64,000 nucleotides of DNA from Hexactinellida sp. DTS-2022 (lineage: Eukaryota; Porifera; Hexactinellida): assembly GCA_028753945.1 (NCBI GenBank), contig JAPNXP010000005.1, forward strand, positions 2,294,001-2,358,000. Reading direction: 5' to 3'. Both the position numbers and the translations under genes were made by a program. The notes beneath the pieces were generated by a model that worked only from the letters and a program-made list of their open reading frames with translations, had not been told where the DNA came from and ran no database searches. This document shows, piece by piece, positions 17,641 through 61,290 of this stretch (within the stretch, counting starts at the first letter, position 1; each line of letters opens with the position of its first letter).

Positions 17641-17943
17641 AAATGTCTGACTATATGCTTATTCTAGACTATTATTTAGTCAGAAAGCTTGTTCCCCACT
17701 GTGTGTATGAAATATTTCATTCCTTTTTATTAAATTCGTTAAAAAATTTAATTGACAATGAACATGATATTTATTTATTTAACGTGATTTACTTTAAAAG
17801 CAGGCTATAAAAACACGATAATACCCACCAAAAATATCGATTACGTAATCAAATGATGACATAGCTCAATTCTGAAGGGTGCTATGTATACCTTGATGTC
17901 ATATTCCTGAATAGTTATAGAACATTTATGAGGTCTATCACTA

Positions 17944-20263: not shown

Positions 20264-20509
20264 GTACTTATAATATATTGAAGTGATAAAATTCGACATA
20301 ACTCTGGATTCAATTCTAGTTTTTATACAGAACTTCCTCCAATTCAAGCGATGGCCCTTTGTCTATGAATCGCCAAAAGTCCGTAAGTATCTCATCTCTC
20401 ATAGTTGTTCTGAGGTTGGTTGTTCAGCTATGATTCAAAATGGAATTTGTAAATACAAAATCGGATTCAGTAAACATGATTACTTCTTGTAACATTGGAA
20501 GTGAGTCTC

Positions 20510-20534
20510 CACAGTGGGGCAACATGGCTGAATA
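20510..20534 (+). repeat. Left terminal signal of the Transib-like element
   Basis: Heptamer CACAGTG (20510-20516), a 9-base spacer, then GGCTGAATA (20526-20534), which is also present at the right end. ACAAAAATT follows at 20536 and loosely resembles an RSS nonamer. Confidence 0.8.
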
Positions 20535-21276
20535 AACAAAAATTTTACCATTTTTAATTGCTAAATGATTGCGATATTCGAAATCAGAACTATTGAAACC
20601 TAGGAATCCGAATTTTAATTACTCTAACACCAGTGGTTATGAAATAGTTTGTGGTTGAAAGTTTGGTTTCTATTTTATCTAAAATATTCAATATATTTTT
20701 ATTATATTAGTGACATTTACGTCATCGCCATTTGAAAACTACGAATCACACGTATTGGAATGTTGTTTGTGAGGGATCTACTATCTACTTGTTGCATTTA
20801 TAAAAACATTTTGAATTATTCCGTTGAATATTATAAACTCCTCATCAGAATTCGTAAAGCTTGTTTCACAAATACATTACAAACGGTGACACTATACTTT
20901 AAACTGTCGAAACTTATACTGATCACTGCTGATCAAAGAAGTTAGTGATATGTGAAGACAAATATTGATATATATTTAAATTTAGTTTAAATTCATGGTG
21001 ACCAAAGATGACCAAAATATCTTTTTTGGTCTCCAGTTATACAGTTTAAGCTAAAATAGTCCCATAATGCATTGTAGTAAAAAAATGTAAATTTATTATC
21101 AATCAATATTGTAAGATGTAATATTTATTTGAACTTTCTTAGATATCAAACAAGAGAAATGGAATGCAATTAATTTGTTTCATAGAGATATTAGTGACTT
21201 AAAACAATGTAGTAATATTGGTCATAAATAATATAATATCCAATAAATTTTCAAAATTCTAAACATTTAATCTAAA

Positions 21277-23365
21277 ATGAACAATCAAGAAGCAAGAAAT
21301 ATTCTCCAAAAGGCCGAAAATAACTGTCGTAAAGCAACCAGCGAGATGCTGGTCCAATTTGATTTACCAGAATCTCAATTTTCAATGATGAACAGGAAAT
21401 TTCATGAATTAACCACTATCCGTAGAGAGTTTGTCCGACATAATGATCTGAATAATTGGGAAATTTTGCATTTCTATGAACATGGGGCATGTAAACCTTC
21501 AGAAAAGATGAGATCTGATGGAACAGATAAACTGACTGATACAATTTCATTTGTTGAACCTCTCTCTAATACAAACAGGAAATCTATTTCAGCAGTTACT
21601 CTGCAAACAATAAGAACACGGCTTATGGTACTACTCGATCATATCACTTTTCTCGCTGAGAGAGAAAATACTGACTCCAGAACAATTGCAGCTTTAGCAC
21701 TCCAGTGTATCAGCAATGATAATTATGACAGAGATACAGCCAAATTATGTCGCGATGTTGCTGCGAGAACTGCACCCAATCAAGTTAACAAGTTCCAATT
21801 AGAAAAAGCCTCCTTTATGTTAGATCTCTTGGAAATTGGGAAAAGGAAATACATTGACCTCCGTCGTATCTGCAAGTCAGAAGATATTCATTTTCCTGGT
21901 TACAAGAAGATTGTAGCATACCGAAATGAAATTTGTTCAGCACAGGAAATCTCTGTCTTAAATAATGAACAAGGAAATTCCATAGGAGTGAATATTCCAT
22001 ACTCTACTTTAGTACATAAAACAACAGAAAGAATAGTACAGTTGATTCCTTCTTGCATAGAATCTCATTACCCTTTAACTCTCACGATAGCTGATGGTTT
22101 AGATGGCTCAGGGAGTCATCGACTTTACAACCAGATTCCTACAAACCCAACCCTCTCAACGAAATCTCTCATATTATTTGCCTTCAAAGCTTTGTCCCTA
22201 ATCGATAAATCTGGTAAGGAAATTTGGTCAAATCCATGCCCTAACTCACCTTTTGTGACGAGGCCAGTTGCATTAGTATCTCAAAAAGAAAATTACGAAA
22301 ATGTCAATTATCTCATGAAAACACTAATTAATCCTAAAACTTGTTTACTAGAATCTAATGGCTTAGAACTACGTGAAGGGCATGTAAATGTGATTGTAAA
22401 GAGGACTCTGTTCGATGGCAAAATGTCCGCTATACTAAGTGGGGCTGGAGGTGCTGTATGTCAACTATGCACAGCTAATCGCGATCAACTTAAAGATATC
22501 GAGTTTGTTAAATATGGCTTCCCCATCAATAGGCATGTAAAAGATGCAATTGACATTTTCAGTGATGTCAATCCGGAAGAATTTCTCAAGCTACCTTCTT
22601 AGATGAGATTCGGTTTAACTCATCCTCCAGCCTCGGATATCAATATCCTACCTGTATCCCCACTACACAGTTATCTATGTGTGTTTAGGTGGTTTATGCT
22701 TTTAATTTACCACTTAGATGCTAATCTCAAGAAATGGTCTCCTACATCTCCAAAAATAAAAAGATCTATGGATAAAATGCGCACTTAGTTGTTGGAGAAA
22801 ACAGGATTTCATATCGATCTTCCTTCCTGTGATGGAGGGACAAGTACAACTGGGAACATAGCACGATCCTGTTTTCTAAATGAAAAGGAATTCATAAAGT
22901 TTGCACGAAGATAAATTGTCAATATCTCTGATCAGAAGAAATCTCTCTGTTATCTTAAGACTCTATAACAGCAGTTCGAAACTTAACACATTTAAACTCA
23001 ACAGTTTTTGTAAAGAAACTTATCTATTCGTGTTAACAACATTCCCATGGGCCAGCATCACGCCATCTCTACACAAGTTATTGGCTCATTCTGTGGAACT
23101 TGTAGCAGATTATAATAATGGATGTGGAATGAAAATATTGTCAGAGGAATGCATTGAATCTTTAAATAAATACGTTAGAAGGTACCGAGAGAAGCTATCC
23201 AGAAAATTCACGTTTGAAGATAACATTAAAGATGTATTCATGCGTATTTTATGTCAAAGTGATCCAGTTCTGGCAAGTTATAGGATGTTCACAGAAAAAA
23301 AAGAAATAAATATTTGTAAATTAAGTGAAGAAGATTTCCTTGTTAACTCGTTTATATTAGAATAG
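21277..23365 (+). pseudogene. RAG1/Transib-type DDE transposase, nearly intact
   Basis: Reading starts at ATG 21277 (441 codons to TAG 22600-22602), continues in the same frame through a second TAG at 22786-22788, and shifts by +1 near 22890-22905 into the last 154 codons ending at 23365. Landmarks match RAG1. ADGLDGSG has Asp at residue 273 (RAG1 D600) and LFDGK has Asp 380 (D708), a spacing of 107 against 108. VCQLC 395-398 corresponds to the zinc Cys pair, HKLLAH to the H937/H942 pair, and SEECIESLNKYVRR holds the catalytic Glu (E962, at 23156-23158). STTGNIARSCF corresponds to MRMNGNFARKL. The RAG1 N-terminal RING and nonamer-binding region are not recognisable. Two nonsense changes and one frameshift make it non-coding as read, though the catalytic core is otherwise conserved. 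Confidence 0.9.
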
Positions 23366-23640
23366 GGTATTCAATAAACTGAGGTGAATCAAATTATCAA
23401 AATGGCTTTACATGTACTAGCATCATTATAAACAATGGAAATTATAAATCGAAATAGTAATTAAGATTAGGTACATTATTGTAGTAAATTAATATTTTTT
23501 TTTTTTTTGTAAATCACGATGACGTGACAACAATTTATGGGGTATCCTTAGAAAAAATCTGAACATACCAAACGATTTCTCATAGTAGAAAACCCATATG
23601 TAATAATACATTTGATAGGTCTAACTTTAACCCAAACACC

Positions 23641-23674
23641 TATTCAGCCATTATTGCCATTTTGCCCCACTGTG
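23641..23674 (-). repeat. Right terminal signal of the Transib-like element
   Basis: Read inward: CACAGTG (23674-23668), an 18-base spacer, then GGCTGAATA (23649-23641). The spacer is exactly 9 bases longer than at the left end. Confidence 0.8.
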
Positions 23675-23699
23675 GTCTCTATCTCAATAATAAATCCGT

Positions 23700-24235
23700 T
23701 CTATATCGACCTATCACTCTAATATATCGGGAAAAACAAACAGACAAGCAAACAAAAAAAAGCACAACAATCGAATTTTAATAATATAAATTTATCGTCC
23801 CATGCAGCCAGAAAGAGCGAGATATCTCACTAATACATTTGTTTGATAAAAAGAGAGAAGCGGCTGCGTCAGTTTTAACACTAATATCTGATGGCGTTAC
23901 AACAACATAAATACTAGTCATAATTGTGACTAATTAAAACAGTCAATAACTAAAATGGTAACTATTTAAAACCACATATAAATATTTGCACGGTGACTCA
24001 ACCCCACATATGGAAGTAAGCTGGCAGATCCCTCCTAACAGCAGGCTTATGGCCAGCTCACGAACAAAACGGCCCTACCGACAGTGCCCTTGGAACTGTC
24101 TCAGTCCGCCCTAGTTGCATAAATACAATTACTGAAATGGTTCACTTATTTTTGGACAAAATATTGAGGGATCAAGGTATTAAAATGGCGAATCAAATAG
24201 CTGGATATGAAAATGCATACTTTTGAATCGACAAT
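23700..24235. other. Non-coding stretch right of the Transib-like element
   Basis: AT-rich except for a GC-richer block 24000-24110 (CTGGCAGATCCCTCCTAACAG). No coding signal. Confidence 0.35.
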
Positions 24236-30370: not shown

Positions 30371-33105
30371 TCAGTTCAGCATAGATACACATGGGCAGGC
30401 GTTTCCCAAGAATATGTGAGTTTAATTATTCGGTATACTTTCCTAGATAGCGCGTGGATCCGTCATGGCCGGACCACTTGCCATTTGCAGTGACATTATT
30501 ATAAAGGATAGTCCATCTTCTGTATTTTGTTCATACTTTATAAAAATTTCCTACCGATCTCGTCTCCCTCGGACAAACTCCATTCAAGGTTATGTGGGAA
30601 GAGAGTCCCGGCATCAAGATCTCTTGTCCACCATTAACGACCTGCATCCCAACGATGAGGAAGACTTTGATTTGGAAGAATCGATTTTCTCTGAAGTCAC
30701 AGATCCACTAGATGATATCGAAGGTATTTTTCCCACCTCCTGATTATCCCCTCGAAGCAGTTAGCAACATCGATGAATCTCGAACTTCTACACAGCAATC
30801 AGCTATGGACTGCATCAATTTTGAACAACTCAAGCAGAAGATACAATATGATTAGAAAGTTAACACTTATCGGTTAGTTGAACTGATGACGATATTAAAT
30901 TCTTACATAACACACAGTCTATCTTGTTACTCATGTTCGATTAATTCTTTCGATTATAATTATTTTCATAATTATTCTCTCTGTAATTAGTGCATCTCTA
31001 AAGAAGGATGATAAGATAATCTATACCAACATGCCCAAACTAAAATACATGCCCAAAACAAAGAAGCAAACGAAACATCTCGGGCCTTGCACAGTGTCGA
31101 AAGGAACAGAAAGCCATGCTACAATTTCTAAAACAGAATTGTCAACGAAGAAGGACAAAAAGATTCCAATCCATATCACAAGACCTTACTTCGAAAGATC
31201 CTCTAGTCCCAAGAATAAGAAGTAAGTAAGCCTCGAAACTAGCATCGAAATCAATACCTCACAGGTAAATTCATTGTGACTGAGTTGTTATTTATGTTAA
31301 AAGATAAAATAGTGTTAATAGTAATATATTCCTTTTTTAGATGTACCAGAATCTTTTCGGATTTTATTCGGAATCTATATTTCAACACCTTAATAACTTA
31401 AAAGTAAGGTCCCGTTTTCACATCTACTGTCTAATTCATTGAGTGTAATCTTTATTGACACTCATTCTTATTATCGCTTTACACCTTCAATTGACGTCAA
31501 TCCAGAATATTTGTATCATTCCGTAATATTTTTCTTACAATGTTGTAATTTGTAGGAAATCCTAAAGCAGAATATACGTGGGCAGACCTTCATGACTCCT
31601 CTACATGAAGAACTGCACAACAAGCTACACAAAGCCTCGACTACACTCCCATCACGATGTTATTCGAGTATTTGCATAGTGAAAAAGAAGAGGAAGTTGT
31701 AAGTTAACAATGATTCATACGATAACTACAAATTATCATTTTACCCATCTATTGTAGGAGACTGATATTATGGAGATTATACTCGGATGGACAACAGATC
31801 TCTACCCCAGCTATACAGATACCCAACGTCGGGGCGGCAGGTCCTTTCGAAAAGTGGTACGGCGGAGAATTTACAGTATTTTAATGTGGTCCGACGACGC
31901 CGCACCAGGTATTTGAATGCGGTCCGGCGGTTCAACACCAGGTATTAGAGTGTGGTCCAGCGATCATAAAAGCATTAATTGGATAAATTATCACTGAATT
32001 GTTTAATTTCGAACAGATATAGGTGGTACTACAAAGCTGGCCATCCTGAAGTGGTACGGCGCTCGCCGCGCCAGCCGTATTGGGTGTGCCGCCCCTGCCC
32101 AAGGTGCTAGATACACACACAAAGTACTGTATTTCGTAGTAAGTTAAAGAAATCTAACAATATACTCATACAACTCAAATTCAGTTAAATGAGTATATTC
32201 GTTCAAGCGGGGTATAACATTAAAATTATTCTTATATTAATTAAATTGTAAATAAATTAATATTTAGGAAATGCAGTATCTAAACACAATGCTATGGGAA
32301 TCATTTCACAACGCAGTTCCGATCCGTAATCCATACTACACACCGATGGACCAAGGATCACTGTGATAAATGAAAATTGGCAGCGTAGTGAATGCGATAT
32401 GTTGGGGATATCATTTAAATTAGTTTGCAGATAACCATATAATAGCGTTGGGAAGTTACTTAGTAGTTTTGAACCTTGGGAAACGGAACATATCGAAGGA
32501 GATGGTAATTGTCTATTTCGATGCATATCTAAATTAATTACTGGGAGTGACCATAAGTCGTAAGAAATCTAGGAATATATTATTGAAATTCAGGAGAAAT
32601 AAAAAGGTTTAAACATTTAAAAAAAAAATTGTTTTTGTTAATCGTAATCAGATAAGGTAGTGTTGGCTATTGCCGTAAATGACACTAGTGTACATGTCGT
32701 ATAATTTCGTATGTTGGCTATCAAAGTTAAATAACTAAAAGTAATAGCTAACAAAACTATCTAATTTATATGTTACAGTAATACTACTCCATTGCCTCCT
32801 CCTCCTGGCCTCCCTCATCCTCCACCTCCTACTCCTGCTCCCCTACAATAATCCTCGGAGATTTAAGATCTCTCCTTCTGCAACCCACCTAGTTCGAAAC
32901 GAACTATAGAGAGGCTGAAAAGCAAAAAATCTTTTAATAAGCCCATCAGTGCTATCGAGACACATAAGCCCGTAAATAGCGCTACTGTAGCTCTCGCAAA
33001 GGTTCCACCTTACCCGAAGGTTATTCAAAAAAGCTCCTCAGTCCCTGATAAAGGCACACACTCTCCTCTCTCCTTCTCACTTCCGAATTTGGGATTTTTA
33101 TATTA
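30371..33105 (+). pseudogene. Copy B integrase-OTU gene remnant with alternative tail
   Basis: 30371-30415 is the rear of the zinc-binding exon (EVGHPGINTTLHSVQ, donor GTGAGT). The whole DDE core is deleted. 30560-30850 and 31031-31225 match the integrase C-terminus including HLGPCTVSK and IPIHITRPYF. 31555-31698 matches exon 7 and 31757-32115 exon 8, split by a GC-rich insertion. 32272-32560 is a frameshifted OTU exon retaining EGDGNCLFRCISK. A donor (AAGTC|GTAAGA) and an acceptor (TTACAG|) would join the broken OTU domain to a proline-rich tail (PLPPPPGLPHPPPP) at 32777-32850, followed by a Lys/Ser-rich frame to 33105. Several stops are present. Confidence 0.7.
31828..32105. mobile_element. 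GC-rich insertion in exon 8 of Ginger copy B
   Basis: Copy C exon 8 reads GAGCGTGCTAGA. In copy B the equivalent CAACGT and GCTAGA are separated by about 275 bp starting CGGGGCGGCAGG and ending CCGCCCCTGCCCAAGGT. Inner arms AAGTGGTACGGCG occur in both orientations, so this is a MITE. The duplication may be as short as GT. Confidence 0.6.
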
Positions 33106-39301: not shown

Positions 39302-42300
39302 TTACACTGTTAGGACTTCATCTGTTGTAGTTCCATACGTCGGGATAGGAGATTTCAGCATTGATACAACAGGTTCATAATGTAGGACGAAATTTTTGAT
39401 GTAAAGATTGGCAGTCGGGCTGTTAGTAGATCTGAGCAAGCTCCAACGCACATGACGAATTACAGACTCTGGCATTCTATAATCGTTGTTAGCAACGTAG
39501 ATATCGGCATTCAGAATAGCAGAAGCAGCCATAATTTCAACATCACTTCCCCAAATGGATTCACGATAGATAGCGTTTTCGTGTGTGAGGTAATGACACG
39601 GTGTTGTTTGCTTTGATTTAAAATACCATCCAAGTTTTGTTGTCCCTTCACTGGCTATAAATCGGCATATAATGGAACGAAGCTGTAGGTGGCTGTTTTC
39701 ACTCCCAGTAATTATTTTGGAGAGACATCTGAAGAGACAATTACCATCTCCTTTGATTTTCTCTGTCAGCTCTGGTTCGTATTTGCTTAGTGGCTGTCCA
39801 ACGAGATCCGATGGTTGCTTGCTAACTGAATCAAATGTTATCCCCAAGAGAACACATTTACTACGCTGCCAATTCTCATCTATAACAATAATTTTTGGGT
39901 CATCCGGATAGGCATCTGTAATAACGGTTTGATCTTTTTCGTCGAACGTGTCCCATAGCATTGTATTGAGATACTCCATCGCCTAATAAAGGTATATAGG
40001 AATCATTAAGTATAATAAAATTACACAATTAATTAGAGCATCCATATAAGGTATCTCAATAATATTGTGTAGAATACTTACCACGAAATACAGTATTTTG
40101 TGTGTATGTCTAGCACGCTCATTATCTGTAAAACTAGGATAAATATCTGGTGTCCATTCCATTACAGTCTCAATTATGTCTCTCTTCTACAGATATATAA
40201 ATACAATGGATAGAAGTTGTGTTTAACTAATCTAATATTTTCTAATTTATACTCGGTTAGACTTACAATTTTATCTTCTTTTTCACCATTCAAAAACTGA
40301 AATAAATAGGTGTTGGGAGTATAGATGTGTTGTTTGTTTAAGCTTCTGTACAATTTCTCATGTATAGGAGTCGCGAAGGTTCCTTGGAGAATATTCTGTT
40401 TTAGAATTTCCTAGAAATTCAAAAAAATGATGAAGTAATCATTATTGCCTGGAAGTTTATGAGATAACTGAAATTGACATCAATTGGAGAAGTAAATTAT
40501 AAAATAACAATGACTTCTCAACAATAATTCAGGAATGTAAAGAGAATGGAATCCTTACTTTGAAAGTAGTTAGATGTGTAAATATAGATACTGCTGTAAA
40601 TCCATAGAGATTCAGGCAAGTCTAAAATTGAATATTTTCAATTAAATTGACACTAATTTCTAATTATGTATGATTTGATCAATAGTACCTGTGATGTGTC
40701 GACACCTATGCTCGAATCGAGGTTTACTTTCTTCTTAGTGTTTCTTACAAAATAAGGACGTGTGATATGGATTGGAATTTTCTTGTCTTTTTTGGCTCCT
40801 AATTCTGTCTGAGAAATAGTAACATGACTATCTGTTACTTTCGACACCGTGTAAGGCCCAATATATTTTGATTGCTTCTTCGTTTTGGGTAAGTGTTTGA
40901 TCTTTGGCATGTTAGTGTATATGATCTTATCATCCATCTTCAGAGAGGCACTACAGATGTCATAATGATAATAAAATGTGAGTAAGAAAACATTGTTGAA
41001 TATATAAAGCTCAACGAACCGTCCTTCGTTGACCTTCTTATCATACTGCATCTTCTGTTTTATTTGCTCAAAGTTGATACTATCCATTGCTGATTGCTGT
41101 GTAGAAGTACGAGATTCATCAATACTAGTAACTTCTTCTTGGGGAATGTCAAGTGGTGGAGAAAAGATGTCTGATATTTCTTCAATATCATCGAGTGGAG
41201 GAATGAATTCGCTCATAATAGCATCGTCTATTGCAAAATCTTCTTCAGTGTTGCACTGCAGGTTGTTAATGGTCGATAGAAGATCTTGATGCCTGGACTC
41301 TCTTCCCCACATAACCTTGAATGGAGTTTGTCCATGGGACCTTTTAAAGGTAGAATTCATTGTTATTGCAGCAGCTTTTAGAAGATTTGTCCAATGATCC
41401 CCAGTCTGGATCTCCATTTTGTTCAGTTTACTAAAAAAGAACTTTCATAGTTGGTATATTATCCTAAATCATGCATTCGAAATGTTGTTATCATTTACTA
41501 GTTAACTAATAACACTACCTTTTGAGAATCTTATTGTGTGCTTCGACTAAACCGTTAGCCATCGGGTGGTATGCACGAGTGCTACGATTTTCAACTCCTA
41601 ATTTCCGGTGAAATTCCTGAAATATCTATGAATAATACAAGCAAAATTACAATCGAATACGTACTAATATTATAAAAAATACATATTTAGCAATATGTCA
41701 CTGATAATATTCGATTAGAATGTAGAAAAATGATTATGCAACTCACATTACTTGTAAACTCCCTTCCTTGGTCGTGCTGAATAATATCGGGTAATCCCAT
41801 ATCGAGGTAGATATCCTTAAGATTCTGGATTACTTCTTCTGATGTCTTCGACTTGAGAGCGCGCACTGCAACGTATTTGCTCAGATAACAAACAGTGACT
41901 AAAATGTGTTTATATCCATCTTTGCTCTCAGAGAAATCACATATAAGGTCCATCCCTATATGTTTCCACGTTTTAGATGGAGGTGGAATTGGTTGGAGCT
42001 TCTTTTGCGGTTGTGGTGGCAAGGCCGCTGTCATCTGACATGTATGGCAAGTCTTAACCTTTAGTATACAAGAAAGTAATTATAATATGGCATTTTTTAA
42101 TAATTTTGTATTAGTTACAGCATCGATATCTAATTACACCATTATATAAAATTCGTAAATGGTTGATTAAAGTTAACTGAACATTATAAAAATAAATATA
42201 AAAACAATTTGGGATCTTGCGAAATCATGTTAGTTGCTATTAGTCGTCAAAATAAAATGCTTTACTAATTAGACAATCTAGAACTTAATAATTACGATTA

Positions 42301-57949: not shown

Positions 57950-60132
57950 CGATATACTAGATTCTTAACCAAGGTCCCTTCGGTTGAGGAAGGGTACCGC
58001 CACAAACCATAAGTTTTAAGCCTGCAGCGTTTTGAACTCTGCTCAATGCAACATAAAGTAGTCCATGGCTGAAAATTGAATTCGGAGATGGTAGGAATAT
58101 GCCCACTTTTCCTTAACTCTGCCTTGCCCTTTGTTAATGGTAATACAAACGGCAGGACGAATTGGAAACTGCCTCCTGAGCACAAACGGAAAGCCTGAGT
58201 CAGATGGAGTCAAGGGAATGCGGGAAATACAAACCCGTTTACCCTTATTAACACCTGTAGCCATTTCAGCGTCAATCATGCGATTCAGGAATGCTTTTAC
58301 TGTTAACCGAGTACCGTTACACATTCCTTGAGTCGGGTCAAGACTACGCAATAAAATAATAGAAGCGTAAATTTTAAGGTACAGTCGATTAGGAGGCAAA
58401 CCATTTGGTGTAATAGAATTTAGGAACTCAGTGGGGTACATTGCTGCCTGCTCCTCACATACCGAGTCTGCGCTTAATAACATGCTCGCTTCCCCTGGTA
58501 TCAGGTTCATAGCGTATTGATTTATAAACTCAGTGGTGTCATTCTTAGGACACATCAAACTACGGCGAGAAATATAACCAGGATTATTTTAGTTAACTTT
58601 AATATCGCCGTTAGTAGCAGCAACCAAATCAGAAACTGACTCGCCTGCTACTACGAATTTGTGGTCTACGTGAATCATATGACTCTCATCCTCGGGCTCA
58701 GTGCCTTCTCCAACTCTCAAAAGGAATTCGGAGAAGTCACTAACTTGGGATGCATCACCTGAAGATCAATTACGAGTCGCATGTTTATAGTGAGTTTAAG
58801 AACCTTAACATGACTCCAGAGAGGCGATCTGTTCAGACAAGCTGACACAACATCAGCTTCGGTCCCATGTCTGATTACAGGCAGTATTTGACGGAAATCA
58901 CCTCCAAACACAATAACTTTGCCACCGAATGGGATATCGCATGAACAGAGATCTATCAATGTACGGTCGATACACTCTGCAGCATGTCTATGTGTCATAG
59001 GAGCATCGTCCCAAACAAACTGTTTCGTGCGCTGAATTAACCTAGCTAAGGCGCTCTGTTTTGAAATACTGCAGACAGAGATTTCATTCAAATGGATAGG
59101 GACCTTCATCCTAGAGTGAACAGTCCTACCACCCTGTAGCAGCAGAGCTGCTATACCGGATGAAGCCATTGCTAATGCTATATGACCCTGTGAACGGACC
59201 GTGGATAACATCGTGTTATAAAGGATCTTTTTTCAGGACCCTCCAGGTCCATCGATAAAGAATGCATTAGATCACGAATTAGTATCGTTAACAGCTGCAA
59301 TTATAATGTTATAAATACTTAACTGGTCAGCATTTAGCAGAAGCAAGTTTTGACTCACTGTATCATTCTGTTCACTAACATTATAATCAAGCTCATCCAT
59401 AATGATACGCGACTCCTCATACGGATTACTCACATTAGTAGGGATCGGCATTCCTGGGTAGTCAGCTAAGGACTTTCCATTTTTCTGCAGTCGGTACTCA
59501 AGATCAAGCAATACACTATTTAAGATATGCTCGTCGAGTTCCACATTAGCGAATACAGTTCTAGCACGACACTGGATGTCCTCAGCGAAAGAGGGTTTGT
59601 ACTTATCCCAGAGAGCGAGCGGAATAGATGGCTCAACAAACAGGAGAATAGTCACGAATTGCTGACGCAACTGTGCTGGCATAGAACAGGTAGCTGCCTC
59701 TGCCAAACACTGATCAACTTCCTGATCTTCCTCCAGCAGACCTCGCCTCAGACATGCCTCCTTATAGGTGTCACAGACGGTGCCATCAGGGAGAGTACGG
59801 ATGTCCTGAAAGCTCGTGCAACTTGTGACTTGGTTGAGAAGTGTCCTCAGGTAGAAACGTGGTCCCTCCCCTGGATGAGCTGAGTATATACGGGCTATCA
59901 CTTTCCCATGCCCCTTAACTCTAAGTTTCCATTCACGCTTATCTTTGTCCCACACAAACGTGTCAGCGAAATTCGTGTAAGTGAGTTCTAGCCCTGCAGT
60001 GAATTTCTTATTAGCTTCGAACCGTGCAGTTAGTGTGGTATGTTTTTGTCTGCTCAGAACATCTCCTATGTCCGCGTCAGCAGAGAAGACCACAGACTTC
60101 TCATTCTCAAGATGGAGAGCTAGCCTGACCAC
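57950..60132 (-). pseudogene. Helitron Pif1-family helicase domain, decayed
   Basis: Minus-strand pieces: 60132-59272 (linker before the helicase, LALHLENEKSVVF, DLEYRLQKNGKSLADYPGMP), then 59265-59215 with the Walker A region AFFIDGPGGS where the following Gly codon is TGA, then 59211-58717 (ALAMASSGIAALLL, VWDDAPMTHR, VFGGDFRQILPVI), then 58558-58043 (LLSADSV, YPTEFLNSITPNGLPPNRL, GMCNGTRL, ITINKGQG) and LKTYGLWRYPS to about 57950. The order matches Pif1-like helicases of Helitrons, which unwind DNA during rolling-circle transposition. Frameshifts and the Walker A stop disable it. Confidence 0.88.
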
Positions 60133-60154
60133 TTTGGGGAATTTACCGTGAAGT

Positions 60155-61290
60155 TCAAAGGCGAATATACGGTAGCAAGCTTTCCGTGGCAGAGACGTAT
60201 CGACCTTCTACGTAATTAGCGACCTCGTCCTTACGCTTAGCTAAGCTTGTATTCGCAGTTTCGCCTGAACTAAACTCAACAATGGCTCTATCGTGACCCT
60301 TGTACACATATTTGAAGAGGTACTTAACAGCAGTAACTGTGGTACAAAGCTCTAAATTAATGTGCGCATTGTACTTCAACAGCAAATAGGGATTGTGTGC
60401 GACTGCCCACCGATTGTCAAGAAGAGCCTTGCCTACTCGCACGCTACGGCCATCATTCCTGCGGCGGTAATTAGGGTACCCATTATTACCAGTGCTGGTC
60501 ACGGAAGAAAATTCTTTCGGGAATCTCTTAGAGCATTTACCATCACGCATGCAAGCGGCGCTTTTGTTAGACAAACCACATGGACCATGCATCATACAGC
60601 GCTTCACAATGCTATGTAGCCTCGGTTTAAGAACTGGGTCCGGGATCTCAGCACACACTATCTTATCATACGCAGAAGGGTCTCGCGGCTTATCCTCATC
60701 AGTAAGTATAATTATAAAATGAGCATGGGGTAGGCCCCGCTTTTGGAACTCTATGGTATACACATAAGCAAGAGGCTTACCGAAAATGTGCTTTATGGTA
60801 ATATCCCTCAGTAATTCACGCAGTTTAAGGCGAAAGACTCGAACTATTAAATCAGGGTGATCGCTCGCTTTCTGATATAATAGCAGTGCGGAAGTAATCT
60901 CCTCCCATTGTGGATTACAGGTAAATGTAATGAATAAGTCTGGCTTACCATATTTCCTGACTATAGCCATAGCGTCCTGATAGAGTTCAAACATTTGTCT
61001 GGAGCTACCTGTGTAAGAGGAGGGGAGAATAATACTGCGTCCCACCTCACCGGCGTCCGTGTTGCCTAAGGACAGAGCGTCAGCCAGACCGCTGTAGAGA
61101 TCACTCCTGATCTTCCTCTGGTTGAACTTTATGTATTTCAGTCTCTACTGCTCTATCTTAGCGTGCATATCCACCAGGTACTGATGGAACAGTCTCCCGA
61201 ACACGTGCAGGTAGCTCAGGTGCTCAGGACCATCAGTCTGTAGGAGTGGTACTCCATCGGTGTGACGCAGCCCTTTCCTCTGCTGTGAGG
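60155..61290 (-). pseudogene. Helitron Rep (HUH endonuclease) domain
   Basis: Continuous from 61045 to 60155 for about 296 codons, with an upstream extension to 61290 (HLSYLHVFGRLFHQYLVDMH) that contains one TAG near 61148. Rep motif 1 is FITFTCNPQWEEI. Motif 2 is GLPHAHFIIIL, with the two metal-binding His of the HUH signature. Motif 3 lies in KYLFKYVYKGHD, with the catalytic Tyr/Lys. This domain nicks and joins single strands at the element ends. It ends in a stop just before the helicase linker. The motif residues are intact, but flanking lesions break the protein. Confidence 0.9.

Follow-up and report, generated by a model that had tools for sequence, protein, structure and literature searches.

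We consider it highly probable that the window, the 64-kb stretch of sponge DNA analysed here, carries a decayed cut-and-paste transposon of the Transib type, with a RAG1-type DDE transposase and no RAG2, and that the transposase of an intact relative pairs a short end with a long one, cuts at CAC and inserts with a 5-bp stagger. Judged by its transposase homology, 5-bp duplication, CAC heptamer termini and DDE triad, the element belongs to the Transib superfamily. Its unequal bipartite ends, which were absent from the first-pass annotation, are a more telling feature than the heptamer.

The element spans positions 20510-23674 of the window (3,165 bp; Table 1). The left end reads GTCTC-CACAGTGGGGCAA from 20505 and the right end, up to 23679, reads TTGCCCCACTGTG-GTCTC. 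The inverted repeat is identical over 13 bp, or 95% identical over 20 nt when one flanking base per side is included. The first-pass annotation had described CACAGTG at both ends within a perfect duplication of GTCTC, and both held when the sequence was re-examined. CACAGTG is not rare by itself, with six occurrences in the window against 4.4 expected from shuffling; it counts as evidence here because of the paired geometry and the duplication, not as CACAGTG alone. In a second inward-facing pair (window positions 31090 and 32365) neither the ends nor the flanks resemble each other, and it was taken as chance. Separately, a lone CACAGTGGGG site on the minus strand (17696-17703), with no partner in the window, is possibly a solo end or a chance occurrence.

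The insertion target is a repeat (window flanks 20380-20509 and 23680-23811) with dozens of further copies in the genome. The flanks were joined through one GTCTC and compared with the genome; of the 48 match rows from the 40 candidates scored (out of 259), 38 crossed the joint. Five of these empty-site copies were aligned base by base, and each had one GTCTC and an ungapped joint. The borders of the element, and the duplication, are thus confirmed by uninterrupted copies of its target elsewhere in the genome.

Table 1. Features of the element, in window coordinates.
Feature	Positions	Strand	Basis
Target-site duplication GTCTC, left copy	20505..20509	.	Sequence; single-GTCTC empty-site copies
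5' terminal heptamer CACAGTG	20510..20516	+	Sequence; further copies of the same family
Spacer, 11 bp, 5' (short) end	20517..20527	+	Borders by convention, after the cross-family consensus
Second element, 5' end, CTGAATAAA (cross-family consensus GGNANTAGG)	20528..20536	+	Borders conventional
Transposase piece 1 (441 aa), closed by an in-frame TAG	21277..22602	+	ORF list; HzTransib match; alignment
D276 codon (piece 1)	22102..22104	+	
D380 codon (piece 1)	22414..22416	+	
CQLC (piece 1)	22459..22470	+	
Transposase piece 2, frame of piece 1, ends at second TAG	22603..22788	+	
Transposase piece 3, different frame, with HKLLAH and RAG1 E962-equivalent glutamate	22901..23365	+	
HKLLAH (piece 3)	23072..23089	+	
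E962-equivalent glutamate (ESLNK) codon (piece 3)	23156..23158	+	
Second element, 3' end, CTGAATAGG as read on the minus strand	23639..23647	-	
Spacer, 20 bp, 3' (long) end	23648..23667	-	
3' terminal heptamer CACAGTG	23668..23674	-	
Target-site duplication GTCTC, right copy	23675..23679	.	Sequence; empty-site copies

The transposase of the window copy is broken by TAG codons at 22600-22602 and 22786-22788 and by a frameshift near 22898-22914; after the second TAG its frame runs on (GGTSTTGNIAR) to a stop at 22912-22914. This copy is a pseudogene, unable to encode a whole transposase. HzTransib was matched both by piece 1 (E=2.5e-9) and by piece 3 (E=9.2e-11). In the Pfam search piece 1 matched no family, and piece 3 reached 14.7 bits against Pfam RAG1, below the cut-off of 25 bits. 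Alignment with RAG1 and HzTransib equates RAG1 D600, D708 and E962 with D276, D380 and the ESLNK glutamate. The earlier choice of D273 as the D600 equivalent was wrong: D276 (in GLDGSG) aligns with both RAG1 D600 and the Transib aspartate, and the spacing to D380 becomes 104 instead of 107. D273 lies close by and, in the multiple alignment, is conserved among the sponge-type rows alone. The HKLLAH motif and the ESLNK glutamate that the annotation pointed to are present, and the glutamate does align with E962, but their frame is not that of D276 and D380, leaving the triad split over different frames.

The surrounding window has a GC content of 33-37% in 14 of its 16 4-kb steps; the 36% given for the Oopsacas minuta genome in the available text of PMC10280926 agrees with this. 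A higher-GC stretch at 58720-61144 (minus strand) holds Helitron remains, with Helitron_like_N at 60158-61144 (E=3e-50) and a PIF1 helicase at 58720-59232 (E=2.5e-59). Also on the minus strand are a fragment of a retroelement integrase core (rve, 41690-42079, E=9.1e-7, just under the Pfam cut-off) and an OTU-like cysteine protease frame (39305-39982, E=2.7e-9).

A seven-row family profile matched HzTransib at 4e-37, amphioxus RAG1L at 3.4e-11 and RAG1 at 5.3e-11. Against Pfam RAG1, six of the seven members gave E values of 0.1 or lower (best 2.7e-7), and one relative, L059, cleared the Pfam RAG1 cut-off (36.8 against 25 bits); L-numbers denote labelled copies in the host genome and F-numbers denote families told apart by eye. 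In a tree of 36 rows the sponge-type proteins (23), the Transibs (11) and the RAG proteins (2) were each set apart by a well-supported branch. The sponge-type rows comprise two named Oopsacas minuta proteins, four unnamed database proteins and others from the host genome; the Transib rows are HzTransib and ten proteins found with it. These matches, the profile and the tree bear out the first-pass assignment to Transib and its kinship with RAG1.

Could this be instead a RAG-like (RAGL/ProtoRAG) transposon whose RAG2-like gene has been lost? The profile does match RAG1L and RAG1, and it aligns with both of them, after the CxxC, an insert of about 36 residues (GFPINR...) that the sponge-type proteins carry and four insect Transibs, 20-23% identical to the L059 protein, do not. 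Many sponge transposases also end in a zinc knuckle, as PMC9435367 describes for RAG1L. By eye, a C-terminal CCHC knuckle is present in L035, L036, L037, L042, L043, L045, L058, L059, L061, L064 and L065 and in variant form in L047, and is missing from window piece 3, L032, L050, L057 and L062; the Pfam zf-CCHC matches were weak (four of the seven members, best E=0.01). Against such a loss, HzTransib is by far the better profile match, and the window element contains no open reading frame longer than 61 aa beyond the transposase pieces, and hence no RAG2-like gene. A genome-wide search for RAG2 gave no match, but neither did its controls, so its silence carries no weight. The tree also keeps three separate groups, although it is unrooted, has long branches and does not give the closest pair. 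We regard the loss of a RAG2-like gene from a RAGL element as very unlikely, and treat the family as Transib.

The family profile found 104 proteins in the protein database (7,999 candidates were scored, those with most shared words), and all 17 that carried a species name belong to the glass sponge Oopsacas minuta. A region search aimed at more distant relatives gave 46 proteins, the named ones again from Oopsacas minuta. Together with the GC content, this makes a hexactinellid the probable host. No relative turned up in scans of viral contigs or of contigs from prokaryotic genomes, and no sequence named Hydra Transib-9 or ctenophore Transib was among the matches listed (in one list, 120 of 779).

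In the host genome (112.4 Mb searched, 18 contigs) piece 1 found at least 102 protein matches (688 candidates, 95 scored), several of which may stem from one copy. Thirteen of the 102 lie in stop-free open frames of at least 700 codons, each checked by script; one of these, L056, ends in unrelated sequence. The window's own family has eight 5'-end matches, including that of the window, and the genome search called for in the first-pass annotation showed that further copies of the family keep identical termini. One copy (L003/L027, contig C1) has lost its 5' heptamer. Among the four family copies with both ends, two have perfect duplications, one matches at four of five positions and one is displaced by CG. 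L007 (G000:C14:3128024-3129487; 1,464 bp), an internally deleted copy of this family with its own perfect duplication, TAGTG, is a non-autonomous derivative.

Elsewhere in the genome, L032 and L033 are 99.86% identical over 3,666 bp and have different duplications, and L034 and L037 are 99.3% identical over 3,082 bp. That copies so alike carry different duplications suggests recent movement. L045 exceeds L043, to which it is 99% identical, by 725 bp, and something has probably inserted in it. The 3' ends L015, L016 and L017 lie on different contigs, share a 12-base flank and look like duplicated segments and not separate insertions.

We examined duplications in 37 elements: 26 of the 39 protein-bearing copies (L026-L065), namely those with both ends placed, together with L007 and ten from the pattern search. 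A perfect 5-bp duplication was found in 27, one displaced by 1-3 bases from one end in six, a four-of-five match in two and none in two. Pairing the flanks of different elements as a control (1,332 pairings) gave two perfect and ten displaced duplications. The displaced cases, with 1-3 extra bases before the terminal CAC, are L038, L049, L030/L031 (the C13 copy), L087/L088, L089/L090 and L091/L092, and look as if cleavage or end processing is sometimes imprecise.

In 27 elements whose two ends were located through end similarity or a CAC..TG search, and not through the full heptamer, CACAGTG stood at 53 of the 54 ends. Outside this set, single ends deviated in L004 (CACAGTA) and L019 (CACAGAG). 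With heptamer positions 4-6 left free, and CAC, GG, an 11-bp spacer and GGNANTAGG fixed, the genome held 239 sites, compared with three when the pattern was reversed; CACAGTG stood at 89 of the 100 sites listed. It might still be supposed that the element belongs to a different DDE superfamily and owes its CACAGTG ends to chance, as CACAGTG alone does arise by chance in 64 kb. The transposase homology, the 5-bp duplications and the 53 of 54 heptamers make this so improbable that we give it almost no weight.

The two ends of these elements are not equivalent. We compared the ends of 15 representatives, one for each family told apart by eye (L038, whose ends are likewise one short and one long, was left out). 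The sequence past position 13 of the 5' end recurs in the 3' end with a shift of +9 in nine families and +10 in four, so that in 13 of 15 the best match is at +9 or +10; F11 and F15 differ. In these 13 a family-specific second element lies 9-10 bp deeper at the end on the 3' side of the transposase, and all of them share this polarity. Summed over the families the match at +9 was 123 of 210, whereas 3,000 shuffles never exceeded 86 and the opposite polarity reached no more than 79; in the window element it was 11 of 14. In an analysis of nine families the match at +9 was 89 of 126 and shuffles reached at most 56; one family, F3, matched best without any shift (shift 0). Where the second element is taken to begin is conventional, whereas the end-to-end difference of about 9 bp is not.

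Genome-wide pattern searches gave the same two distances. Spacers of 1-18 bp were found at 247 sites (reversed control 1), and spacers of 19-31 bp, with A fixed at position 12, at 207 (reversed control 0). The listed sites peaked at 11 and 20 bp. The spacer was 11 bp in 83 of the first 100 short sites listed, the other 17 having 9, 10, 12, 13, 15 or 18, and 20 bp in 90 of the first 100 long sites listed, one of which was listed twice. A spacer of exactly 12 bp with the same second element occurred at four sites genome-wide.

Ends facing inwards within 6 kb of each other were short/long in 23 of 24 pairs, drawn from 182 jointly listed entries; two of the pairs share one end, and copies belonging to one family do not count as independent. 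Ten of the 23 were inspected for duplications: six were perfect, three displaced and one lacking. The sole short/short pair (C4:2344603-2348301) has no duplication and unlike flanks and ends, and is probably two elements.

The asymmetry may be merely inherited: a founder with nine extra bases at its 3' end could have given rise to all the families, with an enzyme indifferent to the spacing. The single polarity of the 13 shifted families fits such a descent, as do the clustering of the sponge-type proteins in the tree, the deviant spacers at 17 of the 100 listed short sites, and L047, which kept a perfect duplication despite a shortened 5' end. However, the second elements vary from family to family and yet agree within an element, with a mean match of 10.3 of 14 between an element's own two ends and 6.8 of 14 across families, and the length of the spacer is far tighter than its sequence. 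We therefore think inheritance alone rather unlikely. Co-divergence of the second elements, with spacers held to length more than to sequence, looks like recognition at two fixed distances, and the enzyme may require, or even enforce, the pairing of a short with a long (11/20) end.

How would an intact relative move? Its transposase would bind one end with an 11-bp spacer and one with a 20-bp spacer together, with the CACAGTG heptamers contacted by the catalytic core and the second elements by the N-terminal region that aligns with the nonamer-binding region of RAG1. Cutting at the CAC border would then release the element for insertion with a 5-bp stagger. By analogy with work on RAG1 and Transib, we infer synapsis of the two ends, nick-hairpin cleavage at CAC and a 5-bp-stagger insertion. 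The N-terminal region is a putative reader of the second element. The profile's match to RAG1 begins in the nonamer-binding domain region; the isolated domain (3gna) matched the family profile at E=0.27 only.

Transibs with asymmetric ends are known. PMC9435367 describes Subgroup I Transibs as all having asymmetric ends, an equivalent of alpha11-alpha12 and a CTT1 tail. The sponge families resemble that description in their unequal ends (in 13 of 15 families) and may also do so in their insert at the alpha11-alpha12 place and, in part, in a CCHC tail, although the tail is missing from the window's own family. HzTransib (structure 6pqn) and its insect relatives, placed in Subgroup II by the same paper, share the DDE core, the 5-bp duplications and the single gene, and have ends resembling the RSS heptamer (PMC8289069, available text); the four insect proteins compared differ from the sponge type in their low identity and in lacking the insert of about 36 residues.

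ProtoRAG and RAGL elements have a RAG1-type transposase, a CAC heptamer and 5-bp duplications, the last reported for both RAGL and Transib in the available text of PMC7204232 and PMC4411706. The ends of ProtoRAG are also bipartite and unequal (27/31; PMC8289069, available text). In those texts, however, the ProtoRAG heptamer is CACTATG and RAGL carries RAG2L, whereas the sponge element has CACAGTG, 11/20 spacing and no RAG2L. Aureococcus AanRAGL likewise has two elements at its ends, the spacers being 4 and 13 bp long, and so the same 9-bp difference, but it encodes RAG2L and its end sequences are other ones (PMC9435367).

The vertebrate 12/23 RSS shares the identical heptamer and the combination of a short with a long end, but its nonamer is ACAAAAACC rather than the GGNANTAGG-like element of the sponge, and its spacers differ by 11 bp rather than 9 bp. 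The sponge ends are not V(D)J RSSs, which have an A-rich nonamer at 12 or 23 bp; in the sponge, 11 or 20 bp separate the second element from the heptamer. The first-pass annotation had called an exact RSS heptamer in an invertebrate transposon without RAG2 notable for RAG origins. The heptamer is indeed exact, but the available text of PMC8355894 already reports some Transib heptamers and nonamers identical to canonical RSSs, along with a few Transibs whose ends are 12/23-like. In general terms, the literature already contains both asymmetric Transib ends and Transib heptamers identical to that of the RSS. For sponges, no paper on Transib ends was among the literature matches listed, and the word 'Transib' was not found in the available main texts of two glass-sponge genome papers (PMC10280926, PMC10282587); an earlier description of such families is possible.

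The heptamer alone is a modest point, but the 11/20 geometry, seen across the genome and in an element that lacks RAG2, merits specialist attention. The pairing of short with long ends resembles the 12/23 rule, yet the element has no RAG2 gene, and the available text of PMC8355894 has the 12/23 asymmetry recognised only with RAG2. We suggest tentatively, as a possibility, that a functional 11/20 spacer rule operates on an exact RSS heptamer in RAG2-free sponge Transibs, and that both heptamer and rule would then predate the joining of RAG2.

This large sponge family, with its near-identical copies, open frames, exact RSS heptamers, unequal ends and RAG2-free element, offers natural substrates and enzymes. 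With these one can address the age of unequal pairing relative to RAG2 and the identity of the domain that reads the second element; the family-specific second elements permit swap experiments. Unequal ends built on an RSS heptamer facilitate tests of how the 12/23 rule arose.
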